From a bacterium (GTDB lineage: Bacteria; Vulcanimicrobiota; Vulcanimicrobiia; Vulcanimicrobiales; Vulcanimicrobiaceae), in assembly GCA_028869385.1 (NCBI GenBank), contig JAGWSR010000096.1, positions 1 to 64,000 on the forward strand: 64,000 nt of DNA, in the 5' to 3' direction. Numbering within the stretch: the stretch's first letter is position 1; each line of letters opens with the position of its first letter. Positions 2,589 through 55,414 of this stretch are shown in pieces. The notes beneath the pieces are model-generated. The model did not search any database. It worked only from the letters and a program-made list of their open reading frames with translations, and was not told the DNA's origin. The position numbers and the translations under genes were made by a program.

Positions 2589-3854
2589 ATGGAACTCAAC
2601 CGGCTCCTTCGACGCCAGTGGATACCGCCGTGGGCGCTCCTCTTCGCGCAGCTCGCGCATGGGGCCGCGTGGGTACTGCTCGTCTATGCGGCGGCGCGCT
2701 TCGGCGTGCGGGGGCTCACCCCGGGAGCGGTCGCGTGGATTCACGTCGTCGCGCTCGGCTGGATCACGATGGCGGCGCTCGCGATCCTGCTGCACGTGAT
2801 CCCGCGCTTTACCGATCTTCCCTGGCGCGGTGAGGCGCTCGCGCGTCATGCACTCGGCCTCTTCGCGATCGGCGTCGTGCTCTTTATCGTCGGATGGTTC
2901 GCGAGCACGACCCTCGTCGTCACGGGCGCGGTGACGATCGGCATCGCGCTCGTCGCATACCTCACCGCCGCCTTCGCGACACTCGGCGGCCGTACGCCGA
3001 TCGAGCCGACCGAACGGGCGATCGCGCGCGCGCTCGCGATGACGCTCGGTATCTTCACCGCCGTCGCGTTGCTCGGCGGCTTCGGGCTCGCGGCGCTCGA
3101 AGGAGCCGCCCCCGCGACGTGGATCGCGCGCGTGCCGCCCGCGCACGCGGTGCTCGGCATCTTCGGCTGGTTCACGATCTTGATCGTCGGCGTTGCGGCG
3201 CGCACGATGCGTCCGATCTGCGGCGTACGTTCGCGCTTCCCGCGTGTACACGCGATCGTCGGCTCGGCGCTCGTGCTGGGTGCGCCCCTGCTCGCGCTCG
3301 GGATTCTCGGCGATCTCGCACCGCTACGCTGGAGCGGCGCGACGCTCGTCGCGCTCGGATGCATCGTCTATATCGTCGACGCCGCCGACATCGTGCGTCG
3401 TGCGACGCGGCCGCATCGGCCGCCGCAAGCGTTCGTCGTGGCCTCGCTCGTGTGGCTCGCGCTCGGGATCCTGCTCGGCGGCGCGCTGCTTGCGGGCGTC
3501 CCGTGCGGCGAGGCGTTCGGCTACGTGCTGCTCGTCGGATGGGTCGGACAGATGGTGAACGCCCACGTGTTCCACCTCGGCGTGCGCGTCATCTCGACCA
3601 CCGTGCGCGGCGACGACGACGAGACGCGTCCGGGGCTGCTGCTCGACGAGCGCCGCTCGTGGATGACGTTCGTCGGCATGCAACTCGCCGTCGCGATCGG
3701 TGGGTACGGGCTCTTACGCGGAAATGCCGACGACGCGATCGTCGCCGGCATCCTGGGTGCGGCCGCGTGGTTCGTGATGATGACGAACCTCGTCGGCGCC
3801 TACTTCAACGCGTTCGAAGGAACGAAGACGAGCGCGAGTCCGTCGATGCAGTAA
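2589..3854 (+). CDS. Heme-copper oxidase subunit I-like / NnrS-like membrane protein
   Basis: A 421-residue protein with about 12 hydrophobic helices. Conserved-looking intramembrane histidines occur in WIHVVALGW, LLHVIPRF, PAHAVLGIFGW and NAHVFHLGV, as in lone relatives of oxidase subunit I and in NnrS proteins. No subunit II or III is nearby, so a complete terminal oxidase is not supported; heme or NO-related roles are possible. The ATG at 2589 is preferred over an in-frame TTG at 2547. Its last 55 bases overlap the 3' end of msrB on the other strand. A second protein of this kind lies at 30324-31409. Confidence 0.5.
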   Translation: MELNRLLRRQWIPPWALLFAQLAHGAAWVLLVYAAARFGVRGLTPGAVAWIHVVALGWITMAALAILLHVIPRFTDLPWRGEALARHALGLFAIGVVLFIVGWFASTTLVVTGAVTIGIALVAYLTAAFATLGGRTPIEPTERAIARALAMTLGIFTAVALLGGFGLAALEGAAPATWIARVPPAHAVLGIFGWFTILIVGVAARTMRPICGVRSRFPRVHAIVGSALVLGAPLLALGILGDLAPLRWSGATLVALGCIVYIVDAADIVRRATRPHRPPQAFVVASLVWLALGILLGGALLAGVPCGEAFGYVLLVGWVGQMVNAHVFHLGVRVISTTVRGDDDETRPGLLLDERRSWMTFVGMQLAVAIGGYGLLRGNADDAIVAGILGAAAWFVMMTNLVGAYFNAFEGTKTSASPSMQ

Positions 3855-13555: not shown

Positions 13556-14540
13556 GCAGTTCGAGCGGGAGATTCGCGAGCAGCCCGAGGTGTGGGAGCG
13601 CGTCGCGCGCGGGAGCGTCGCGGCCGCGCTCGCCGAGCGACTCGTCGGCGAGATCGTGCTCGTGGGGAGCGGCAGCTCGCTCTTTGCGGCGCAACTCGGC
13701 GCACAAGCTTTGCGCCGCCGGGGCATCACCGCGCACGCGCTCGCCGCAAGCGAGGCACTGCGCGACCATCGCGCCTATGTCGGTCGCACGGTCGTCGCGC
13801 TCTCGCAGAGCGGTGCCTCGACCGATCTGCTCCGCGCACTCGACGTGCTCGCTCCCGCGCACGCAATCGCGCTGACCAACACCGTCGCATCGCCGCTCGG
13901 CGAACGCGCGGAGACGACGCTCGACGTCGGTGCGGGGCCCGAGCGTGCGATTCCGGCGACCAAGAGCGTCACCGCGACGATCGCGATCTTGCTCGCCGCG
14001 GCCTCGCATCTCGGCGGAGAGCATCCGCGGACGGTCGAGGATCTGCTCGCCACGGCGGCGTGCGTGCGTGCGTGGCTCGCGCGCGAGCGGCACGACGAGA
14101 TGCTCGGCGCGGCCAACGCCATCGCCGCGCGGCACGACGTCGTCTTTCTCGGCACCGCCTACGGCGCGCCCATCGCGCGCGAAGCCGCGCTGAAATTCAA
14201 GGAAGCAACGTACCTGCACGCCGAGGGATTCGAAGCGGGCGAGTTTCGCCACGGCAGCGCCGCGATGGTGGACGCGACGACCGCGCTCGTCGGCATCGTG
14301 GATGCCGATGCGATGGATGTCGTCGGTCGGCCGCTGCGCGAACTCGAAGCGACGGGCGCGCTGCGCTTTGCGATCGGCGGCGTCGCTCCCGAGCGCGTCG
14401 CGCGCCTCGGGCCCGAGGTCGGTGAGGCCTACGACACGCTCGGCTGGCTCGTGACGATTCATTTGCTCGCGCTCTACGTCGCGCGCGCGCGCGGCATCGA
14501 GAGCGATGCGCCGCGCGGTTTGACGAAAGCCTTGCTTTGA
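13536..14540 (+). CDS. Double-SIS sugar-phosphate enzyme (GlmS isomerase-domain / NagB-II-like)
   Basis: 334 residues with two SIS domains. The first carries VLVGSGSSLFAAQ and ALSQSGASTDLL; the second carries FLGTAYGAPIAREAALKFKE and the GlmS-type GFEAGEFRHG; DAPRGLTKALL resembles the GlmS C-terminal 'PRNLAKSVT' loop. There is no glutaminase domain, so it is more likely an amino-sugar-6-phosphate deaminase or isomerase than a full GlmS. It starts inside the last 20 bases of the M1-like gene and is coupled to a permease, suggesting uptake and use of an amino sugar or its product (inference). Confidence 0.82.
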   Translation: MAQILGKQFEREIREQPEVWERVARGSVAAALAERLVGEIVLVGSGSSLFAAQLGAQALRRRGITAHALAASEALRDHRAYVGRTVVALSQSGASTDLLRALDVLAPAHAIALTNTVASPLGERAETTLDVGAGPERAIPATKSVTATIAILLAAASHLGGEHPRTVEDLLATAACVRAWLARERHDEMLGAANAIAARHDVVFLGTAYGAPIAREAALKFKEATYLHAEGFEAGEFRHGSAAMVDATTALVGIVDADAMDVVGRPLRELEATGALRFAIGGVAPERVARLGPEVGEAYDTLGWLVTIHLLALYVARARGIESDAPRGLTKALL

Positions 14541-15898
14541 CCGCATCGCCGTTGATCCGCGGCGTCGGCACGCGCGCCGCCGTGGCGATCAACGTGATGT
14601 CGATGATCGGGATCGGGCCGCTGATCACGATCCCGCTCGTCCTCGGCTCCCTGCACGGTCCGCTCTCGCTCGTCGGCTGGCTGCTCGGCGCGCTGCTCGC
14701 GCTTTGCGACGGTCTCGTGTGGGCCGAACTCGGCTCGCGCTATCCGGGCTCGGGCGGCACGTACGGCTTTCTGCTGCGTGCCTTCGGCGAGCATCCGGTC
14801 GCGCGCGCGCTCGCGTTTCTCTTCGTTTGGCAGACGATCATCGTGGTTCCGCTGACGCAAGCCACCGGGTATATCGGCTTTGCAAACTACGCGGGCTATC
14901 TCGTGCCGTGGATATCGACGCACGCGTTCGGCGTGCAGGCGGTCGCGCTCGGCGCGGGTCTCGTCACGCTGCTCGCGCTCTATCGCCGCATCACGACCGT
15001 CTCGAAGGTCGGTCTCGTGCTCGGCGCGATTGCGATTCTGACGCTGCTCTGCGTGATCGTGGCGTCGTACGCGCACTTCTCGCCGCACCTCGCCTTCGCG
15101 ATGGACGCGCACGATTCGGTCTGGATCGGCCTGCGCGCCGGGCTCGGCCAAGCGCTCGTCATCGCGATGTACGACTACATCGGCTACGGTCAAGCCGCGT
15201 CGCTCGGCGACGAGGTGATCGCGCCCGCGCGAACGCTGCCGCGCGCGATCGTCGCGGCGATCGCGATCGTAGCGGTGCTCTACGTTTCGATGCAACTCGG
15301 CGTGCTCGGCGCGGTCGATTGGCATGCGTTCGTTCCGCTCGCCGATGGCACGCTTCCGCCGCTCGGTCAGCATCTGGCTTCCGCGGTGGTCGAACGCGCC
15401 TTCGGCTTCGGCGCGGCGAGCGCCGTGACGCTGCTCATCTTGGTCACCGCCTTCGCCTCGACGTACGCAAACTTGCTCGGCGCATCGCGCATTCCGTACG
15501 CCGCCGCCGTGGACGGGAATTTTCTCAAACCCTTCGCGCACGTCCATCCGCGCGAGCGCTTTCCCGACGTCGCGCTCCTCGTCATGGGTGTCCTCGCTCT
15601 CGCGGCGTGCCTCTTTCGCCTCGATCAGGTGATCAACGCGCTCACCGCCGCGGGCGTATTGATCCAGTCGGTCGCGCAGATCGGCGCACTCTTCGCGATG
15701 CGCGCGCGCGGCGAGCGTGCGCCGTATCGGATGTGGCTCTTTCCGCTCCCGGCGCTCGTCGCGCTCGCGGGGTGGGCGTACATCTTCGTGAGTTCGGGCG
15801 CGCCGGCGATGCTCTTCGGTGTCGCGACGCTCGCGCTCGGCGGTGCGGTCTATGCGGTGGCGTTCGTCTGGCGGCCCGGCCGCGTGCGCTCGTCCTGA
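14537..15898 (+). CDS. APC-superfamily amino acid permease
   Basis: 453 residues, about 12 transmembrane helices. The first helix reads VMSMIGIGPLITIPLV, the unwound substrate-binding TM1 typical of APC transporters, and ELGSRYPGSGGTYGFLLRAF is the family's TM2-3 signature. A TTG start overlaps the stop of the SIS gene (TTGA), implying translational coupling. The substrate is not readable. The last 49 bases overlap the 3' end of the M48 gene on the other strand. Confidence 0.88.
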   Translation: MTASPLIRGVGTRAAVAINVMSMIGIGPLITIPLVLGSLHGPLSLVGWLLGALLALCDGLVWAELGSRYPGSGGTYGFLLRAFGEHPVARALAFLFVWQTIIVVPLTQATGYIGFANYAGYLVPWISTHAFGVQAVALGAGLVTLLALYRRITTVSKVGLVLGAIAILTLLCVIVASYAHFSPHLAFAMDAHDSVWIGLRAGLGQALVIAMYDYIGYGQAASLGDEVIAPARTLPRAIVAAIAIVAVLYVSMQLGVLGAVDWHAFVPLADGTLPPLGQHLASAVVERAFGFGAASAVTLLILVTAFASTYANLLGASRIPYAAAVDGNFLKPFAHVHPRERFPDVALLVMGVLALAACLFRLDQVINALTAAGVLIQSVAQIGALFAMRARGERAPYRMWLFPLPALVALAGWAYIFVSSGAPAMLFGVATLALGGAVYAVAFVWRPGRVRSS

Positions 15899-17055
15899 CG
15901 CAGCGCGCGAATGCGCCGACCGAGGCTCGGGTGCGAAGCGAAGATGAGTTCGTACCAGCGCGGCACGTCGTCCTCGGCAAGATTCCGTTCGCGTAAGCGC
16001 TCGAAGGCACGGACCCCCGCACCGGGATCGTCGGTCGCCGCGAGCGCGAAGCGGTCGGCGGTCCACTCGCGCGAGCGCGAGTATGCGGCGAGCGCGGGAC
16101 GCAGGAGCGCGAAGGCGACGCCGATGCGCGCGGAGATGCGCGCGAGCGCGTGTTCGGCTCCGAGATCGCGATCGGCACGCGCGCTCGCGGCGGCGAGCGC
16201 GGCGATGCTCGCGAGCTCGGCCGCGCCGATCATGCGCCAGGTGTCGCGCTCGACGTAATGCCCGAGTTCGTGAGCGACGACGAAAAGGATCTCGTCGTCG
16301 GGAAAGTGCTCGAGCAAGGTATCGCCGAGCACGATGCGATGCGTGGTGCCGATCCCCGCCACGAAGGCGTTCGCCTTGTTCGTCTGGCGACTCATGTCCA
16401 TACGCAGAATCTCCGCGTCGCCGACACCGTAGCGAGCGGCTAGGGTGCGGATCTTTCCTTCGAGCGGTCCGCGCAGCGGCTCGAAGCGATTGAAGAGCGG
16501 TAGGACGTAGAGCGGAACGACGATCTGCGCGAGCGCGTAGAGCGGCAACAGCCCGGCCGCGGCGGCGTAGGGCCACGCGCGCGGAAAGCGTCGCACCGCC
16601 GCACCGCCGAGCGCACCGAGTACGGCTGCGACGCCCGTGCCGAGGAGCGACGCTTTGACGTAATCGGAGGCCCACGCGCGCGCGCTTTGCTCGCTCTGCG
16701 CGAAGCGCCTTTCGAGGTCGTACCCTTCGGCGAAGGCGATGCCGCCGTCGAGCAGGCTCGTGCCGAGCGTCGCGACCGCGGCGAGCAGCGCGGGACGCAA
16801 CCACGCCGGCAGCGGTGCGAGCGCGCGCTGCAGGCGCGGCGCGAAGGGACCGTAGGCGAACGCGAGGGTCGCGCTCGTCTCGCGCAGCAACGCGGCGAGC
16901 GCGAGCGCGCGTCGGGTGCGCCCGTATCGCACGGGATTGGGCGGCAACGGCGGGCGCGGGGTTCGAAGCGTGCGCGCGGTTTCGTACCAACGCCACGCGG
17001 CGTACCCGGCGCTCGCGCCCGCCGCGGCGCCGAGCAAGAATCGGTTGAGCTTCAT
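15850..17055 (-). CDS. M48-family (CAAX prenyl protease 1-type) metallopeptidase
   Basis: 401 residues with several N-terminal and central membrane segments. The zinc site HELGH (in FVVAHELGHYVERDT) and the downstream third-ligand motif SREWTADRFAL are intact, and FNRFEPL precedes them as in Ste24/CAAX-protease-type M48 proteins. Likely a membrane-bound protease for quality control or maturation; no substrate is evident. The ATG at 17055 is 14 bases from the divergent amidohydrolase start. The C-terminus overlaps the APC permease gene by 49 bases. Confidence 0.87.
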   Translation of the reverse strand: MKLNRFLLGAAAGASAGYAAWRWYETARTLRTPRPPLPPNPVRYGRTRRALALAALLRETSATLAFAYGPFAPRLQRALAPLPAWLRPALLAAVATLGTSLLDGGIAFAEGYDLERRFAQSEQSARAWASDYVKASLLGTGVAAVLGALGGAAVRRFPRAWPYAAAAGLLPLYALAQIVVPLYVLPLFNRFEPLRGPLEGKIRTLAARYGVGDAEILRMDMSRQTNKANAFVAGIGTTHRIVLGDTLLEHFPDDEILFVVAHELGHYVERDTWRMIGAAELASIAALAAASARADRDLGAEHALARISARIGVAFALLRPALAAYSRSREWTADRFALAATDDPGAGVRAFERLRERNLAEDDVPRWYELIFASHPSLGRRIRALRQDERTRPGRQTNATA

Positions 17056-17069
17056 CGGAAGAACGTCGG

Positions 17070-18557
17070 GTGATCCTCTTCGAAAACGTGCGTGCGTATC
17101 GGTACGATGCCGCCTCCCGACGCTTCGTCGCCCATCGCTCGGTGCTCGTGGACGGCGAATCCATCGTGGCGCTCGACACCGAGCCGACCGGCGTCGGCGT
17201 CGATCGCATTGACGGTGACGGCGCGACGCTCGTTCCCGCATTCGCCGACTGCCACGTGCATCTTGCCGAAGCCGGATACTATGCGGGCCCGCGCTCGCTC
17301 GCGGCGGTACGTTCGTATGCGGAGTTCGATGCGGCCGTCGCGCGCGCGCCGCGCGACGGCGACATGCTCTATGCGGGCGGCTACGACGACGCGCTCTGGC
17401 ACGATGCGGCTCGCGCCGACGCGCGGCCGCTCGAACGCCATCACGCCGATACCTACGCGCTGCTCGTGCGGGTCGATAGTCACTCGTGTATCGTCAACCG
17501 CAAAACCCTCGCGTGGCTCGACCTGCCGCCGGAGACGCCGGGTATCGAACGCGACGACGCGGGCGAACCCACGGGTCGTCTCGCGCTCGAGGCGAATTGG
17601 AGCGCGCAGGCACGCTTCATCGCGCGCATTCCGAACGAGATGCGGCGGGCGAGCGAGCGGCGCGGTGCCGATCTCGCGCGCGAGCGCGGCATCGCGCACG
17701 TCCACGCGCAACTGCTCGGGCGCGACCGCGACGGGTACGCCGCCGATCTCGAGGCGTTGCGCGCGCTGCCGATCGCGGTGCATCCGAAGATCTGCGAGCC
17801 GGACGCCGCGCTCGCGGAATGGTTCGGTCTACCCTACATCGGCGGCGACGTGTTTTTGGACGGATCCATCGGCAGTTGCACGGCGGCGCTCTCGCAGCCG
17901 TATCGGGGCGGGCGCGGTGCGGGGAACCTGCGCTTTAGCGATGACGAATTGCTTGCCTACTTTGCCGGTGCCGAGGCGCGCGGCATCGCGGCCGGCGTGC
18001 ACGCGATCGGCGATGCCGCGATCGAGCAGTGCGTGCGGACGTGGGAGCGCGTGCTCGGCGGCAAGCCGTCGCCGCGCGGCGCGCGCCACTTCATCGAGCA
18101 TTTCGAGATGCCGGACGACGCGCACGTCGAGGCGTGCGCGACGATGGGCATCACGCTCTCGATGCAGCCGCAATTTCACGCGACCTGGGGCGCCGAGGGC
18201 GGTATGTACGAAGAGCGACTCGGAACGCAGCGGCGGAGCCGCATGAATCCGCTGCGGGCGCTCGTGGCGCGAGGCGCACACGTGTGCGGCGGCTCCGACG
18301 CTCCGGTCTGCGCGCTCGATGCGCTTGCGGGCATGCACGCGGCCTGCGCGCAGCAAGAGCCGCACGCGTGTCTCGACCCGCACGAAGCGCTCGCACTCTA
18401 CACGGTCAACGCGGCACGCTTCGGATACGCCGAGGAGCGTACGGGCAACATCGCGCCCGGCTTACGCGCCGATCTCGTGCTCTTGGATCGCGATCCGCTC
18501 GAGGACGGTGCGTTCGCGCGGGCGCGCGTGCTGCGTATGGTGATTGCCGGGGTCTAG
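17070..18557 (+). CDS. YtcJ-like metal-dependent amidohydrolase
   Basis: 495 residues of the amidohydrolase superfamily. Metal-site motifs are DCHVHL (N-terminal HxH), HPKI, GVHAIGDAAI and CGGSDAPV with the catalytic Asp; NIAPGLRADLVLLDRDPL is the usual C-terminal beta-sandwich segment. YtcJ relatives hydrolyse amides or formamides, but the substrate here is unknown. Starts with GTG, 14 bases from the divergent M48 gene. The stop overlaps the convergent exported-protein gene by 4 bases. Confidence 0.85.
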   Translation: MILFENVRAYRYDAASRRFVAHRSVLVDGESIVALDTEPTGVGVDRIDGDGATLVPAFADCHVHLAEAGYYAGPRSLAAVRSYAEFDAAVARAPRDGDMLYAGGYDDALWHDAARADARPLERHHADTYALLVRVDSHSCIVNRKTLAWLDLPPETPGIERDDAGEPTGRLALEANWSAQARFIARIPNEMRRASERRGADLARERGIAHVHAQLLGRDRDGYAADLEALRALPIAVHPKICEPDAALAEWFGLPYIGGDVFLDGSIGSCTAALSQPYRGGRGAGNLRFSDDELLAYFAGAEARGIAAGVHAIGDAAIEQCVRTWERVLGGKPSPRGARHFIEHFEMPDDAHVEACATMGITLSMQPQFHATWGAEGGMYEERLGTQRRSRMNPLRALVARGAHVCGGSDAPVCALDALAGMHAACAQQEPHACLDPHEALALYTVNAARFGYAEERTGNIAPGLRADLVLLDRDPLEDGAFARARVLRMVIAGV

Positions 18558-33831: not shown

Positions 33832-33852
33832 GGGGCGCGCTACGCGCGCCCC
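33832..33852. terminator. GC hairpin between convergent cyclophilin and multicopper oxidase genes
   Basis: GGGGCGCGC (33832-33840) pairs with GCGCGCCCC (33844-33852) around a 3-base loop. It lies 22 bases after the cyclophilin stop and covers the oxidase stop codon. There is no T-run, so termination strength is uncertain; it could serve both strands. Confidence 0.5.
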
Positions 33853-35273
33853 GCGTACACGACTTCGGTCATCATGCCGCCCATCATGTGGATCTCGTTG
33901 TGGCAGTGCAGCAGCCAGCGGCCCGGCGGCGAGTCCGCGTCGAAGATCCACGTGAGCGTGCCGCCGTTCGCTGGAACGAGCGAGACGTCTTTCGCGAGCG
34001 GGCGCGCGAGCGCCGTGCCGTTGACCTCCACTACCCGAAACGTGTGACCGTGCAGGTGCATCGGGTGATCCATATCGGTCTTGTTGGTGAAACGCACCAG
34101 CACGCGGTCGCCCGAACGCACGTCGATCTTGGGCGTGTTTGGCCACATCTTGCCGTCGATCGTCCAGGCGCCCGATCCGTACTCGCCGCCGCCGAGCAGC
34201 ATCTCTTTGCGTAGCGTGATGCCGCTGCGATCGAACGACGCCGCGCTTCCACCGGCCTTTTCGTAGGTGAAGAAGTCCACGCCGTCGAGACTCTGCGTCA
34301 CACCCGCGGGCGGCGCGTTCTCCATGCCGGGCGTGTGCACGACCACCGCTTGCTCGAACGCGAGCGGATCGGCGGAGACGCCTTGGAGCAGCCATGCGCC
34401 GGGCTTGGTCACCTCGAACCACGCATCGTAGCGCTCTCCGACGCCGATGCGCAGCGCATCGACCTCGAGCGGTTGGGCGAGTGGATTCCCGTCGGAATGC
34501 GTGACGCGCAGGCGATGTTCGGCGAGGCGCACGTACCGCGTCTGACTCGGATTCGCGTTGAGTACGCGCAGGCGCACGCGATCGCCCACCTTAACGGCGA
34601 GCCGCTTGGTCGAGGGATAGCTCGCGCCGTTGATGCAGTGCGCGACGTACGCCGCTTCGTCGCCCATGCGGTCGTCGGGGCGCATGCCCGCCATCTCCGG
34701 CGAGCCCATCGGATCCACCATCGGCGCGTCGCTCGTCCCGCGAATCGCGGCCATGACGCTCGCCATGTTCGGCACGTCGTGAAACACGAGGGCGAACTCG
34801 GCATCGGCGGGTTCGTCCTTCGGGTCTTCGACGACGAAGAGTCCGAAGAGGCCGAGCAGCGTGCCCATCTTGGCGGCGTGGTCGTGATACCAGCGCGTCC
34901 CCGGCGGATTCGGCGCGAACTCGTAGAGAAAGTCGCCGCCCGGCGGCACCGCGGGTTGCGTGACGCCGGCGACGCCGTCCATGGCGTTGGGAAGAATCAT
35001 GCCGTGCCAATGCACGGTCGTATCGATCTGCGAGCGGTTGTGAAACGCCACGCGCACGCGCTGTCCGTGGCGCGCGCGAAGGAGCGGCCCGGGAATCGAA
35101 CCGTTGAATGCGACGCCCGCGAACGACACGCCGCTCGCCGGCGCGAAGGTCAACGGCGCCGCAGTCAGTGTGTAGGCGATCGTGTCCTCGGCGAGCGCGC
35201 GCGACGAGAGCGCGGGAAGCGCCGCCACGATCATCGCGCCCGCGCCCGTGCGCAGGAAGTGTGCGCGGCGCAT
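33840..35273 (-). CDS. Tat-exported multicopper oxidase (CueO/CotA-like)
   Basis: 477 residues. A twin-arginine-like leader (MRRAHFLRTG, then a hydrophobic stretch) fits folded export. All copper motifs are present: HWHG (88-91), HDH (130-132), HPMHLHGH (403-410) and the type-1 site HCHNEIHMMGGM (456-467). A Met/Asp-rich insert at about 170-205 (DPMGSPEMAGMRPDDRM) recalls the CueO Cu(I)-oxidation segment. It could oxidise Cu(I), Fe(II) or Mn(II), or phenols. The ATG overlaps the stop of the heme-porin gene (ATGA), so the two are co-translated. Confidence 0.93.
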   Translation of the reverse strand: MRRAHFLRTGAGAMIVAALPALSSRALAEDTIAYTLTAAPLTFAPASGVSFAGVAFNGSIPGPLLRARHGQRVRVAFHNRSQIDTTVHWHGMILPNAMDGVAGVTQPAVPPGGDFLYEFAPNPPGTRWYHDHAAKMGTLLGLFGLFVVEDPKDEPADAEFALVFHDVPNMASVMAAIRGTSDAPMVDPMGSPEMAGMRPDDRMGDEAAYVAHCINGASYPSTKRLAVKVGDRVRLRVLNANPSQTRYVRLAEHRLRVTHSDGNPLAQPLEVDALRIGVGERYDAWFEVTKPGAWLLQGVSADPLAFEQAVVVHTPGMENAPPAGVTQSLDGVDFFTYEKAGGSAASFDRSGITLRKEMLLGGGEYGSGAWTIDGKMWPNTPKIDVRSGDRVLVRFTNKTDMDHPMHLHGHTFRVVEVNGTALARPLAKDVSLVPANGGTLTWIFDADSPPGRWLLHCHNEIHMMGGMMTEVVYAGRA

Positions 35274-37021
35274 CAGTCGCCCACCGTCACGGGCACGTCC
35301 ATCGTCGTGCCGCCGTAGGTGATGTGCACCGTCCACGGTCCGCCCATCGAAAAGACGACGGACCCACGCAAGACATGCGGGTCGCTCGTCGGCGCGAGCG
35401 CGATCGTGACCGGCGCCATCTGCATGGAGCCCATCTGCATGACCGCGGCGGCGTGAACGTCGTTCGGGATCGCGCCGGCGAAACGAATCGAGATCGTCGC
35501 GTGCAGCGAGGGCGGCGACGGATCGAAGGTCACGACCGGCCGCGATCCGCTCGCGCCACCGTCGAGTCCCGAAAGGTAGGCGACGATGTCGTCGATCTGC
35601 GCGGCGGTGAAGCCGAAGTTCGGCATCGGCGCGCGCGGTTGCGCGATCGCGTGAGCGATCGCGTCGGGCGTGAGGATGTGCTCGATGCCGACGAGTTTCG
35701 GGCCGATGTTGCCTTGAAAGGCGGCGCCGTGACAGCCCTGACAACCGTTGCTCGCGACGAGCTTGGCTCCCGCGTTCGCATCGCCGCGCGGCGCGGGCGT
35801 TGCGGATTGCGCGCTCGGAGCGGCGACGTCGCCGGCGCCGCCCGCAGGCTCCACGTACGCGCCCGCCGTGGGTTGCCGCTTCAGGAGATAGCGCTTGCCG
35901 AGCTGATATGGACCCGCGAAGGCGAGTTGCAGGCTGAACTGCGGTCGCTGCTGCGGACCGGTCAGCACCTCTCCGATCAGCGCGAGGTTCGGCTGGACGT
36001 TGTGCGCGTAGTCGAAGAGCAACTGACGCGAGAGCGTGTCGGACGACGCGACGTCGTAGCGCACGAGCAGGTGGTTGCGCCAGCCGAGATCGCGCCCCAC
36101 TTCGAAGGTCGCGCCGTTGAGCGGCACGTCGTACGTGCCGAGATCGGGATGCGCGTCGAAACCGTGATAGTACATCGTCTGCAGGTGCCAACGGCTCGTT
36201 TGATAGCCGAAGTACGCACCCTCACGCGTGAAGGCGTCGCTCGCGACGAAGGTGTTCGTCGCGTCGTGCAACGGTGCGAACCCGCGCATCGCGACCAGGC
36301 CGACGCTCCACGGTTGGCTCATGCCGCCGTAGGAGATGTTCGCGTCGAGCGTGCGGGCATTGTCGGCGGCGTTGTAGTCGAAGGCGTTGCCGATCGTATC
36401 GGTGCCGGTGAGGTACGAGAAGTTATACATGAACTCGTTCGACATGCCGTTGAAGGCCAGGCCCCAGCGCGCGTCGTTCGGGTTGAAGTCGTTCTGACCG
36501 GTCGTCTGCGTGGCGAGCAGGTAGTCGCCAATCGTCCATGCGTGCGCGGGCATGAACGGAAAGGGCGTGTGGAACTTGCCGACCTGGAGCGAGTTGAGGC
36601 CGTGGAGCAAACCGTTCCAGGAGACCCAGAGCTGTTCGGTCGCGCCGATCGAGCCGCCGTCGATGACGTGCTGCTCGCCGTACCAGGTGAAGTTCTTGCC
36701 GAGAAAGCCGCCGCCGAGAAACGAGAGATCGCTCACCGAGGTGTCGCCCGGGTTCTGCGCGTTCGCGAGGTGCGAGGTGATGTAGAGTCGCACCGCGAGC
36801 GGCAATGCCTGATTCTGCAGATGCTCGTTCAGAATCTGGAAGTTGCTCATCATCACCATCATGCCGTACCGGGTCATTCCCGGGAACGTCGTGTGGCACG
36901 TCTCGCACGAGACGCCCTGACCGTTGGCAAAGACGGGAACCGCGCGTGCGGCGACGGGGCTGAGAACGAGTAGGGTGACGAGCGCGACGAGCGCGCGGAC
37001 AAATGCGAACGAAGATCGCAA
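35273..37021 (-). CDS. Cyc2-like outer-membrane heme-porin fused to cytochrome c and FixH/CopC-like domain
   Basis: 582 residues. Signal peptide 1-27; VPVFANGQGVSCETCHTTFP (28-47) carries a CxxCH heme site (39-43) in the sequence setting of Cyc2-type fused cytochrome-porins. Residues ~70-385 alternate aromatic and polar strands (NFTWYGEQHV, RWGLAFNG, NFSYLTGTD, LLVRYDVASS) like a beta-barrel. A Pro/Ala linker leads to a class I cytochrome c with CQGCH (427-431) and axial Met466 (MPNF). Residues ~495-582 form an Ig-like, Met/His-containing FixH/CopC-type domain. The TTG start is fixed by GGGAGG six bases upstream. Likely moves electrons across the outer membrane. Confidence 0.8.
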   Translation of the reverse strand: MRSSFAFVRALVALVTLLVLSPVAARAVPVFANGQGVSCETCHTTFPGMTRYGMMVMMSNFQILNEHLQNQALPLAVRLYITSHLANAQNPGDTSVSDLSFLGGGFLGKNFTWYGEQHVIDGGSIGATEQLWVSWNGLLHGLNSLQVGKFHTPFPFMPAHAWTIGDYLLATQTTGQNDFNPNDARWGLAFNGMSNEFMYNFSYLTGTDTIGNAFDYNAADNARTLDANISYGGMSQPWSVGLVAMRGFAPLHDATNTFVASDAFTREGAYFGYQTSRWHLQTMYYHGFDAHPDLGTYDVPLNGATFEVGRDLGWRNHLLVRYDVASSDTLSRQLLFDYAHNVQPNLALIGEVLTGPQQRPQFSLQLAFAGPYQLGKRYLLKRQPTAGAYVEPAGGAGDVAAPSAQSATPAPRGDANAGAKLVASNGCQGCHGAAFQGNIGPKLVGIEHILTPDAIAHAIAQPRAPMPNFGFTAAQIDDIVAYLSGLDGGASGSRPVVTFDPSPPSLHATISIRFAGAIPNDVHAAAVMQMGSMQMAPVTIALAPTSDPHVLRGSVVFSMGGPWTVHITYGGTTMDVPVTVGD

Positions 37022-37070: not shown

Positions 37071-37613
37071 CTATCGCACGGGAGGTGGGCGTTGAAAGCG
37101 CGCCGAGCCGGCGCGAACCGCGAGCGCATGCGCGCGCACGCACGGCGCGCGCGAGACGAAGAGCGAGACGAGTGCGCGGCGTTCGCGTTCGACGAACGAA
37201 ACCGCGGCGTCGGCGGCGCGCTCGCAGCCTTCGAGCAATCGCGCGAAGGTGAGCAGCGCGAGCGTTGCGAGGAGCGCCGTCGCGAGCTGAGCGGCGAATC
37301 CGGCGGCGGTCGGTGTGTTGCCTTCGGCGCGCTCGAGGAGCGCGTAGAGCAGCATCTGCGCCGGTACGAGGCGCACCAGCAACGCTCCGAGGGATTGCTC
37401 GAGCGCGAGGAAGCGTCGCGAGCGCAACAGCGCCGCGACGATCGAGCCGCCGACGAGGGCCGTCAACGCGACGAGTGAAAGCTCGAGCAGCGGAGCGACA
37501 TAGGCGTGCTGCGCGTCGGCGAGCGTACGGCCGCCGAGCGCATAGGCAAACACGTGCCCCAACAGCGTCGACGGGAGCACGGCGCACCACCAGAGCGCGA
37601 AACGTTGCCTCAC
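37071..37613 (-). CDS. Hypothetical membrane protein upstream of the heme-porin gene
   Basis: 180 residues from a GTG with an AAGGCGG ribosome site just before it. Four hydrophobic segments are evident (WWCAVLPSTLLGHVFAYAL, LLELSLVALTALVGGSIVAA, LLVRLVPAQMLLYALLE, AAQLATALLATLALL), followed by a basic C-terminal tail. No family is recognised. It sits between an ABC-2 permease gene and the heme-porin gene on the same strand, 49 bases before the latter, so it may belong to that module. Confidence 0.55.
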   Translation of the reverse strand: MRQRFALWWCAVLPSTLLGHVFAYALGGRTLADAQHAYVAPLLELSLVALTALVGGSIVAALLRSRRFLALEQSLGALLVRLVPAQMLLYALLERAEGNTPTAAGFAAQLATALLATLALLTFARLLEGCERAADAAVSFVERERRALVSLFVSRAPCVRAHALAVRAGSARFQRPPPVR

Positions 37614-52438: not shown

Positions 52439-53613
52439 TTGCGGGACGCGAGGTATGGGTGATCTCCGCGGCGCGCACGCCGATCGGACGCTTCAACGGC
52501 GCGCTCGCGCACGTGCGCCCCGACGATCTGGCCGCGAGCGCGATGCGCGCGGCGGCGGAGCGCGCGGCGATTCCGTTCGAACGCATCGACGACGTCTATT
52601 TCGGCGCGGCGAATCAGAGCGGTGAAGATAATCGTAACGTCGCGCGCATGGGTGCGCTCCTCGCCGGTTTTCCGGTCGAGGTTCCCGGTGTCACCCTGAA
52701 CCGGCTCTGCGGTTCGAGCCTGCAGGCGATCAACTCCGCCGCCGCCGCAATCGCGTGCGGTGAGGGCGAGCTCATGATTGCGGGCGGCGTCGAGTCCATG
52801 ACGCGCGCGCCGTACGTGCTGCCCAAGGCCGAGCACGCCTTCGCTCGCGGCGCGCAGCTCTGCGACACGGTGCTCGGTTGGCGCATGGTCAATCCCAAGA
52901 TGCCGCGCGAGTGGACGATCGCGCTCGGCGAGACGGCGGAGAAGGTCGCGGAGCGCTACGCCATCACGCGCGACGAACAAGACCGCTTTGCGCTCGACTC
53001 GCAGCGTAAATGCGCGCAGGCGGTCGCCGCCGGACGTTTCGACGACGAACTCGCGCCGCTCGACGCGCTCGCGCGCGACGAGCATCCGCGCCCCGAGACC
53101 ACGCTCGAGGGCCTGGCCAAGTTGCGTCCGGCGTTCGCCGCTCAGGGCAGCGTGACGGCGGGCAACTCGTCGGGCATCAACGACGGAGCCGCGGCGCTGG
53201 TCTTGGCCGAGGCGGGATTCGCGAGGGAGCACGGGCTGCGCCCCCTCGCGCGCATCGTGGGCTTCGCGAGCGCGGGGCTCGCCCCCGACGTCATGGGGCT
53301 CGGACCGATCCCCGCCACGCGCAAGGCCCTCGCGCGCGCCGGGCTGCGCGTCGCCGACCTCGACCTGATCGAGATCAACGAGGCCTTCGCCTCGCAGTCG
53401 CTCGCCTGCATGCGCGACCTGGAACTCGATCCCGACAAGACGAATGTCAACGGCGGGGCGATCGCGCTCGGGCATCCGCTCGGCGCGAGCGGCGCCCGCA
53501 TCGCGACGACGCTCGTGCACGAACTGCGCCGCCGTGGCGGACGCTACGGCCTCGCGACGATGTGCATCGGCGTTGGCCAGGGCATCGCGACCATCTTCGA
53601 ACGCTTCGAGTAG
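52435..53613 (+). CDS. Acetyl-CoA C-acyltransferase (thiolase)
   Basis: 392 residues. Catalytic Cys in [12 protein letters not shown], His in [16 protein letters not shown] and the second Cys in CIGVGQGIA are intact. The wording near the N-terminus ([16 protein letters not shown]) and the PaaJ/PcaF-like spacing fit a beta-ketoadipyl-CoA or general degradative thiolase. GTG start overlapping the dehydrogenase stop. Together the two genes complete a beta-oxidation round. Confidence 0.92.
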
Positions 53614-53629
53614 GAACCACACACACGAT

Positions 53630-55072
53630 ATGACCGCAACCCAGTCCGCAAGCACCTACGACGACATCAACCCGGCAACGGGCGAGGTGATCGCGCAGGT
53701 TCCCGAGTCCACGCACGACGATCTCGATCGTGCCGTTCGCGCGGCGCGCACCGCCTTCGACGGCGGCAAGTGGTCGCAGATGGCGGCCTCGCGACGCGCC
53801 AAGATCGTCAACAAGATGGCGCAGTTGATCGCCGAGCGCGCGAACGACCTCATGCTGATGGAGGTGCGCGACAACGGCAAGGCCATCTCCACCGCCAAGG
53901 GTGAGATGGGCGCGATCGTGGACTGCTTCGAGTTTTACGCGGGCGCCGCGACCAAGAATTACGGCGAGACGATGCCCCCGCCGCTGCCGACCTACCTCGC
54001 CAACACCGTGCGCGAGCCGGTCGGCGTGGTCGGCGCGATCATTCCGTGGAACTTTCCGCTCTTGCTCGCATCGTGGAAGGTGGCCCCGGCGCTCGCCGCC
54101 GGCTGCACCGTGGTATTGAAGCCCGCGCCCTCGACGCCGCTCACCGCGCTCGAACTCGGCAAGATCGCGCTCGAGGCCGGCGTTCCCGAAGGGGTGCTCA
54201 ACGTCGTGACCGGCTCGGGTCGCGACCTCGGACAGTGGCTCGTGGAGCACCCGCTCGTGGATAAGATCGCGTTCACCGGTTCGACCGCGACCGGGAAACT
54301 CGTCGCCAAAACCGCCGCCGAGACGATCAAACGCGTGACGCTCGAGCTCGGGGGCAAATCGCCCTCGATCGTGTTCGACGACGCCAACCTCGACGCGGCG
54401 GTCGCCGCCGCGATCTACGGCATCTACTACAACGCGGGACAGGCCTGCGAGGCGCGCTCGCGCGTGCTCGTGCAGAAGAGCATCTACGACCGCTTCGTGG
54501 CATCGTTCGTCGAGCGCGCGCGCAACGTGCGCGTGGGCGATCCCGAGGATCCGCAGACGCAGGTCGGCGCGATCACCCTGCCCGAGCAGTTCGAGAAGAT
54601 TCGCAGCTACTGTGAGATCGGCGCGAGCGAGGGCGCGCGCGTGCTGCTCGGCGGCGAGCGGGCGAAGCTCGACGGCCGCAACGCCGGCGGCATGTTCTGG
54701 AGCGTCACCGCCTATGAAGCCGCGCCCGATGCCCGCATCGCGCGCGAAGAGATCTTCGGTCCGGTCGTGACCTTCGTGCCGTTCGCCGATGAAGCCGAGG
54801 CGATCGCGCTCGCGAACGCGAGCGAGTACGGGCTCTCGGCAAGCGTGTGGTCGGAGAACATCGGTCGAGCCAATCGCGTCGCTCGTGCGCTGCGCAGCGG
54901 CACCGTCGCGATCAACACGCCCTACGCGGTCTTTCCGGGCGTGCCGTTCGGGGGATACAAACAATCGGGGTACGGTCGCGAACTCGGCATGGAGACGATG
55001 AAGCTCTACTCCGAGACCAAGAGCGTGCTCACGTTCATCGGGGAGAAACCGATGAACCCGTTCGGCGTCTGA
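53630..55072 (+). CDS. NAD(P)-dependent aldehyde dehydrogenase
   Basis: 480 residues. The general base Glu lies in LELGGKSPSIVFDD and the nucleophile Cys in YNAGQACEARSR; IPWNFPLLLASWKVAPALAA is the cofactor-binding segment. Closest in wording to betaine- or aromatic-aldehyde dehydrogenases. In this operon it may oxidise a semialdehyde made after ring cleavage (inference). Follows the thiolase after 16 bases. Confidence 0.92.
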   Translation: MTATQSASTYDDINPATGEVIAQVPESTHDDLDRAVRAARTAFDGGKWSQMAASRRAKIVNKMAQLIAERANDLMLMEVRDNGKAISTAKGEMGAIVDCFEFYAGAATKNYGETMPPPLPTYLANTVREPVGVVGAIIPWNFPLLLASWKVAPALAAGCTVVLKPAPSTPLTALELGKIALEAGVPEGVLNVVTGSGRDLGQWLVEHPLVDKIAFTGSTATGKLVAKTAAETIKRVTLELGGKSPSIVFDDANLDAAVAAAIYGIYYNAGQACEARSRVLVQKSIYDRFVASFVERARNVRVGDPEDPQTQVGAITLPEQFEKIRSYCEIGASEGARVLLGGERAKLDGRNAGGMFWSVTAYEAAPDARIAREEIFGPVVTFVPFADEAEAIALANASEYGLSASVWSENIGRANRVARALRSGTVAINTPYAVFPGVPFGGYKQSGYGRELGMETMKLYSETKSVLTFIGEKPMNPFGV

Positions 55073-55076
55073 TCGC

Positions 55077-55082
55077 GAGGAG
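55077..55082 (+). promoter_or_regulatory. Shine-Dalgarno that decides a non-ATG start
   Basis: GAGGAG lies five bases after the aldehyde dehydrogenase stop and eight bases before ATC at 55091. The coding-like frame that follows has no ATG, GTG or TTG until 55178. Confidence 0.4.
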
Positions 55083-55090
55083 TCGGCACC

Positions 55091-55414
55091 ATCGAACCGC
55101 TGAAGATCGGCAGTTACTACGACACCACCTACGGGACGCTCTGGAAGGACGGTACGTACTTCCCTCGCGGCACGCGGGTGATGATCGTGGGCGTGCATCT
55201 CGATCAGGGATTCTGCGTGCGCTTTCCCGCCGACGTCGAGGGCGAGCCGCTCGAGACGTGGGAGGAGTGGAGCGAGTCGGCCTTCCTCGCGCCGGAAGGG
55301 TCGGTGACACCGCCGGTGCGCCCGCTCTCGCGCGCGGTGTTGAACGAAGCGCGCGACGTGCTCTCCGACGCGGAAGACGGCTGTCACCTGCACTTACACG
55401 AAGACGAAGAGTAG
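55091..55414 (+). CDS. Hypothetical protein after the aldehyde dehydrogenase
   Basis: 107 residues if read from ATC at 55091. The segment IGSYYDTTYGTLWKDGTYFP before the first conventional start (GTG 55178) looks like normal protein, so a 78-residue version from 55178 would truncate it. The C-terminus is acidic with HLHLHEDEE. No family is recognised. It closes the dehydrogenase-thiolase-aldehyde dehydrogenase run and is followed by a terminator. Confidence 0.5.
   Translation: MEPLKIGSYYDTTYGTLWKDGTYFPRGTRVMIVGVHLDQGFCVRFPADVEGEPLETWEEWSESAFLAPEGSVTPPVRPLSRAVLNEARDVLSDAEDGCHLHLHEDEE

Follow-up and report, generated by a model that had tools for sequence, protein, structure and literature searches.

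A Cyc2-like cytochrome-porin fused to cytochrome c and a YtkA-like domain, and paired with a multicopper oxidase, in a candidate metal-oxidation operon of Candidatus Eremiobacterota

The window (the whole stretch of DNA analysed here, 64,000 nucleotides) comes from a soil bacterium of Candidatus Eremiobacterota (Vulcanimicrobiota), and three genes lie in a row on its minus strand. The first, a conserved gene just upstream of the second that a previous, sequence-only reading of this DNA had overlooked, encodes an orphan four-transmembrane (4-TM) protein (37071..37613 (-); the GTG start at 37613 is our choice). The second (35273..37021 (-)) is a single open frame of 582 aa, with a TTG start preceded by GGGAGG, and encodes a fusion of a cytochrome-porin, a cytochrome c and a YtkA-like domain. 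The third (33840..35273 (-)) encodes a Tat-type three-domain multicopper oxidase (MCO) that is translationally coupled to the fused gene: as the sequence-only reading had noticed, the two genes share TGATG at 35275-35271, in which the TGA stop of the former overlaps the ATG of the latter. The MCO displays the motifs RR-x-x-F-L, HWHG, HxH, HxxHxH and HCHxxxHxxxxM, with a Met axial ligand at T1 and a conserved Met-rich segment; its three Cu-oxidase domains (PF07732, PF00394 and PF07731, 1e-22 to 3e-38) and the four copper-ligand motifs seen in the alignment identify it as a multicopper oxidase. The 4-TM protein contains GHxxAY, DxxH, RLxxxQ, ExxEG and a C-terminal RFQRPPP, and its relatives keep invariant H, H, Q and ExxE residues and the C-terminal RPPP; it belongs to no family in Pfam or NCBIfam, and its AlphaFold model (pLDDT 83) has no fold match in the PDB.

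A signal peptide, an N-terminal CxxCH, a barrel and a second cytochrome (CQGCH with Met466) had been proposed to reside on one polypeptide, and the frame at 35273-37021 (-) bears this out. The signal peptide (residues 1-27; 36941..37021 (-)), recognised by eye, ends in ARA and is followed by VP; the protein then continues as AVPVFANGQGVSCETCH, which includes C39, C42 and H43. These belong to the heme 1 motif CETCH (residues 39-43; 36893..36907 (-)), which sits in a Cyc2-like context, AVPVFANGQGVSCETCHTTFPGM, and is accompanied by a methionine cluster, GMMVMM (residues 53-58; 36848..36865 (-)). Residues 414-483 (35573..35782 (-)), beyond the barrel, form a class I cytochrome c domain (PF13442, Cytochrome_CBB3, 1.9e-11), in which C427, C430 and H431 of CQGCH (427-431) and the axial M466 are nearly invariant among relatives. 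Full-length relatives in many other genomes align with the fused protein at 54-81% identity; the open frame is therefore not a matter of chance, and an assembly or frameshift artefact is ruled out. A sequence search of the PDB with the fused protein gave no useful match.

The C-terminal Ig domain (residues 490-582; 35276..35554 (-)) had been read both as FixH/CopC and as Met/His-containing. The alignment and Pfam matches point to a YtkA-like domain instead: PF13115 (YtkA) matches in 17 of 19 members at E up to 1 (best E 2.7e-5), and FixH matches weakly and in two members only; the domain is not CopC. The methionine part of the second description survives, in that M528, M530 and M559 are the invariant metal-capable residues of the domain; the histidine part does not, as none of these invariant residues is His. 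A search of the PDB with the YtkA-domain profile found nothing. YtkA domains function in copper delivery (PMC13344008), and the assignment links this domain to the YtkA domain of YcnJ and to CtaK, which deliver copper in Bacillus; the window's copy differs from these in being fused to a cytochrome c and in its weak match (16.2 bits, against a Pfam cut-off of 25.9).

An AlphaFold2 model of the fused protein (26 homologs, mean pLDDT 64, pTM 0.53) has exactly 16 barrel strands at residues 75-370 (35912..36799 (-)), and Foldseek places the model among 16-strand general porins (OmpU at 3.5e-11, Omp-Pst2, PorB, OmpC/OmpF). The earlier reading, which was to be given up if no barrel existed between residues 70 and 385, is therefore not refuted on this count. 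Confidence in the model falls below a pLDDT of 50 in the N-terminal domain (residues 21-73) and in the loop at 153-168, so heme and ligand geometry are not readable from it. Between strands 5 and 6 of the model is the sequence HTPFPFMPAH (residues 151-160; 36542..36571 (-)). In 16-strand porins, the loop between these strands folds into the lumen and makes the constriction; HTPFPFMPAH probably marks this pore-constriction loop. H151, M157 and H160 are invariant in the A2 group, whereas a sister clade that has the fused cytochrome c and lacks the MCO carries PTPxFAPWxSQ at the same place; thus two His and one Met, together with the heme 1 Met cluster, mark the MCO-linked clade.

How close is this protein to Cyc2? 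The latter is defined by AXPXFAR[Q/K][T/Y], CXXCH and PXL on a 16-strand porin, and has been demonstrated to oxidise Fe(II) (PMC8406198). For comparison we used six Cyc2-type proteins from annotated plasmids, such as those of Caballeronia (ALPAFARQTGLACVACHVSFPEL) and Methylocystis (AVPSFARQTGQPCATCHTAFPEL). Once signal peptides had been taken off, the profile of the window family matched that of Cyc2 with 96.5% probability (E 7.6e-10, 82 columns); a control comparison against second cytochrome domains gave 2.3%, the barrels compared alone gave 0.8%, and tblastn reached only E 0.06-0.07. Judged by these profiles and controls, the window's heme domain is probably homologous to that of Cyc2, and the two barrels agree in fold only. 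The CXXCH follows the signal peptide in a barrel protein of 582 aa (at least 365 aa are expected of Cyc2), but the nonapeptide five residues before it reads AVPVFANGQ, which matches the Cyc2 motif at six of nine positions and departs from it at the last three (f3 relatives have FAKRT or FAIRT here), and PXL is replaced by PGM in the window and by PGM, PGL or PAM across the clade. The diagnostic motif is not absolute, because its Arg is also missing from the A. ferrooxidans plasmid and Polymorphobacter proteins, two of the six compared. Since the window keeps only half of it, we term the fused protein Cyc2-like and do not count it as a true Cyc2. The Cyc2-like N-terminus that had been claimed thus stands as probable homology and not as membership.

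Further likenesses to Cyc2/Cyt572 are the wider context of the first heme (AxPxFA...GxxCxxCHxxFPxxTxxG) and the company that Cyc2 often keeps: a c-type cytochrome gene lies downstream in five of the six plasmid loci, and the window protein therefore gives the impression of two habitual neighbours joined into one. What sets it apart, besides the missing R[QK][TY], the PGM and a barrel with no detectable sequence similarity, is the His/Met in loop 3, the fused second cytochrome and YtkA domain, and the MCO partner. Two further cytochrome-porins of other clades are encoded in the window genome (L033:6611-7828 (-) and L034:2229-3302 (+)); the one at L034 retains FARQY, which is nearly the classic Cyc2 motif.

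An outer-membrane barrel coupled to a periplasmic MCO is also the arrangement of PcoAB/CopAB copper resistance, and PcoAB acts in copper efflux: PcoB and PcoA are encoded in a two-gene operon with overlapping frames and a His/Met-rich segment (PMC12509749). By analogy, the MCO would oxidise periplasmic Cu(I) and the barrel would be an exit or entry route for copper; binding of the metal would fall to the YtkA domain and the Met linkers, and the hemes would be secondary. Met-rich linkers do occur in relatives: in L017, L020-L022 and L069-L073, which belong to two lineages, an MxGM repeat of very variable length joins barrel and cytochrome c (the window's own linker contains no Met). Moreover, the family nearest to the MCO is TIGR01480 (PcoA/CopA), and CopCD genes lie near L051. 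We nevertheless consider copper resistance of this type unlikely: the MCO scores 195.7 bits against a TIGR01480 cut-off of 478.95; PcoB has 12 strands (PMC12509749) against the 16 found here, on which there is no Pfam match; and a plain copper pore would have no use for the two CxxCH motifs, both of which are conserved. A plain PcoAB system is ruled out by the strand number and the CopA cut-off.

A pattern scan of GTDB returned 26 loci, all from genomes titled Candidatus Eremiobacterota, Vulcanimicrobiota or just 'bacterium'. Relatives keep the pairing of porin and MCO across the order and the class. In the genomes compared, the fusion is found across the window's family (f1); in a sister family (f2) it is split into neighbouring genes, and in f3 the porin has an extra cytochrome c and no YtkA domain. 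At f3 operons (L043, L044 and L046) the MCO in the same place is shorter and belongs to another type. In genomes of f1, f2 and f3 alike the 4-TM gene keeps its position ahead of the fused gene and travels with the porin, and the genes that flank the operon differ outside the window's genus; the three genes therefore constitute a unit. Cytochrome c-YtkA proteins with an MCO and without a porin were found at no fewer than five f1 loci (L024-L027, L051 among them).

The tie between porin and oxidase was then quantified in 78 non-redundant cytochrome-porins of the class. Both YGMMxMM beside heme 1 (YGMS once) and HxPFPFMxAH are present in 31 of these, and the motifs occur only in this clade. An MCO gene is adjacent at 29 of the 30 motif-positive loci at which adjacency could be tested (L018, L019 and L058 are counted; L070 is left out because it reaches a contig edge), which upholds the co-translation with an MCO as a conserved tie; in the exception, G008, a 75% identical MCO is encoded on another contig. 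The 31 motif-positive porins form one clade, so these 29 adjacencies are not independent events. Among the 47 motif-less cytochrome-porins only two adjoin an MCO, both in G047 (L105:1406-4139 and L112:1873-4648), where the MCO is of a different type and the pair lacks the His/Met motifs. The tree nests both within another clade whose other sampled members have no MCO, which suggests a separate association; two associations are read from the drawn tree, and the tree table counts one change, with the 45 MCO-less rows ungrouped.

Neighbouring genes are mixed, with VIT1, Nramp, ArsP and TonB receptors among the 25 commonest families listed by a Pfam scan, and with CopC/CopD only once (L051; the G007 locus); the neighbourhood therefore singles out no metal. 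The window genome encodes heme-copper oxidases and cytochrome c assembly and gave no match to RuBisCO, so growth on a metal via the Calvin cycle is not indicated. Elsewhere in the window, a frame at 2730-2915 (+) has a weak COX1 match (21 bits, under the cut-off) and no other Pfam match, and two long open frames, at 14474-17209 (-) and 53447-55393 (-) (911 and 648 aa), match nothing in Pfam at 1e-4.

Bearing in mind that relatives keep the pairing of porin and MCO, the operon has the look of a wired apparatus for metal oxidation at the cell surface. We propose, with our confidence evenly divided, that it acts as an outer-membrane metal-oxidation wire, running from pore to heme 1 to cytochrome c to MCO to O2. 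A soluble reduced metal would enter the 16-strand pore, be bound near the constriction by the conserved His/Met residues and give up an electron to the predicted Cyc2-like heme at the N-terminus. From there the electron would move to the tethered class I cytochrome c in the periplasm and on to the co-translated MCO, which would reduce O2 to water, with a branch to heme-copper oxidase possible. The YtkA-like domain may handle copper, whether as the product of oxidation or as a supply for the MCO, and the orphan 4-TM protein may be an inner-membrane accessory. Like the porin-cytochrome complexes PCC/MtoAB and PioAB, the assembly would be an electron conduit across the outer membrane, but one built from single-heme domains in one chain, with no multiheme cytochrome. 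The opposite direction of flow, in which the periplasmic cytochrome would reduce an extracellular acceptor via the barrel heme and the link to the MCO would have some other reason, is compatible with the sequence, which does not reveal direction; the constant pairing with an O2-reducing type of enzyme and the aerobic genome make it highly improbable.

As to the substrate of the proposed wire, we slightly favour Cu(I) over Fe(II), and Mn(II) is less likely. Several observations argue for copper: the His/Met pore and heme 1 motifs are limited to the MCO-linked clade, some members have the MxGM linkers, the MCO has its conserved Met-rich segment, YtkA acts in copper delivery, and there is one CopCD neighbour. 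Fe(II) is what the homology to Cyc2 would predict, and porin-MCO pairs have been put forward as Fe(II) conduits by He et al. (PMC5566968); VIT1 and Nramp among the neighbours point the same way, and terminal heme-copper oxidases are available in the window genome (coxBA genes also lie near the f3 operon L043). We are doubtful of iron, given that the diagnostic Cyc2 motif is kept only in part, that His and Met have been substituted into the pore loop, that RuBisCO gave no match and that the conserved partner is an MCO and not a terminal oxidase. A bolder possibility, which we advance tentatively, is that the Cyc2 scaffold switched from iron to copper, yielding a dedicated outer-membrane Cu(I)-oxidising cytochrome-porin that would hand electrons via its fused cytochrome c to an MCO, and the MCO would be the O2-reducing end of the chain; if so, an oxidase system would have been assembled around the outer membrane.

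The sequence-only reading knew of no described system with this domain order, and our search of open-licence papers agrees: it found no description of the architecture or operon, and no paper combining Eremiobacterota and multicopper oxidase. Cytochrome-porins as a kind are known; what is new here, as far as these papers show, is the MCO partner and the domain order of a Cyc2-like member. The fusion points to a probable partner for the pore heme in the periplasm, on one testable chain. Cyc2-like genes serve as markers of iron oxidation, and one in an Eremiobacterota genome has been reported as possible evidence of it (PMC8357290); a large MCO-tied branch of cytochrome-porins with His/Met pore motifs suggests that some perform other redox work.
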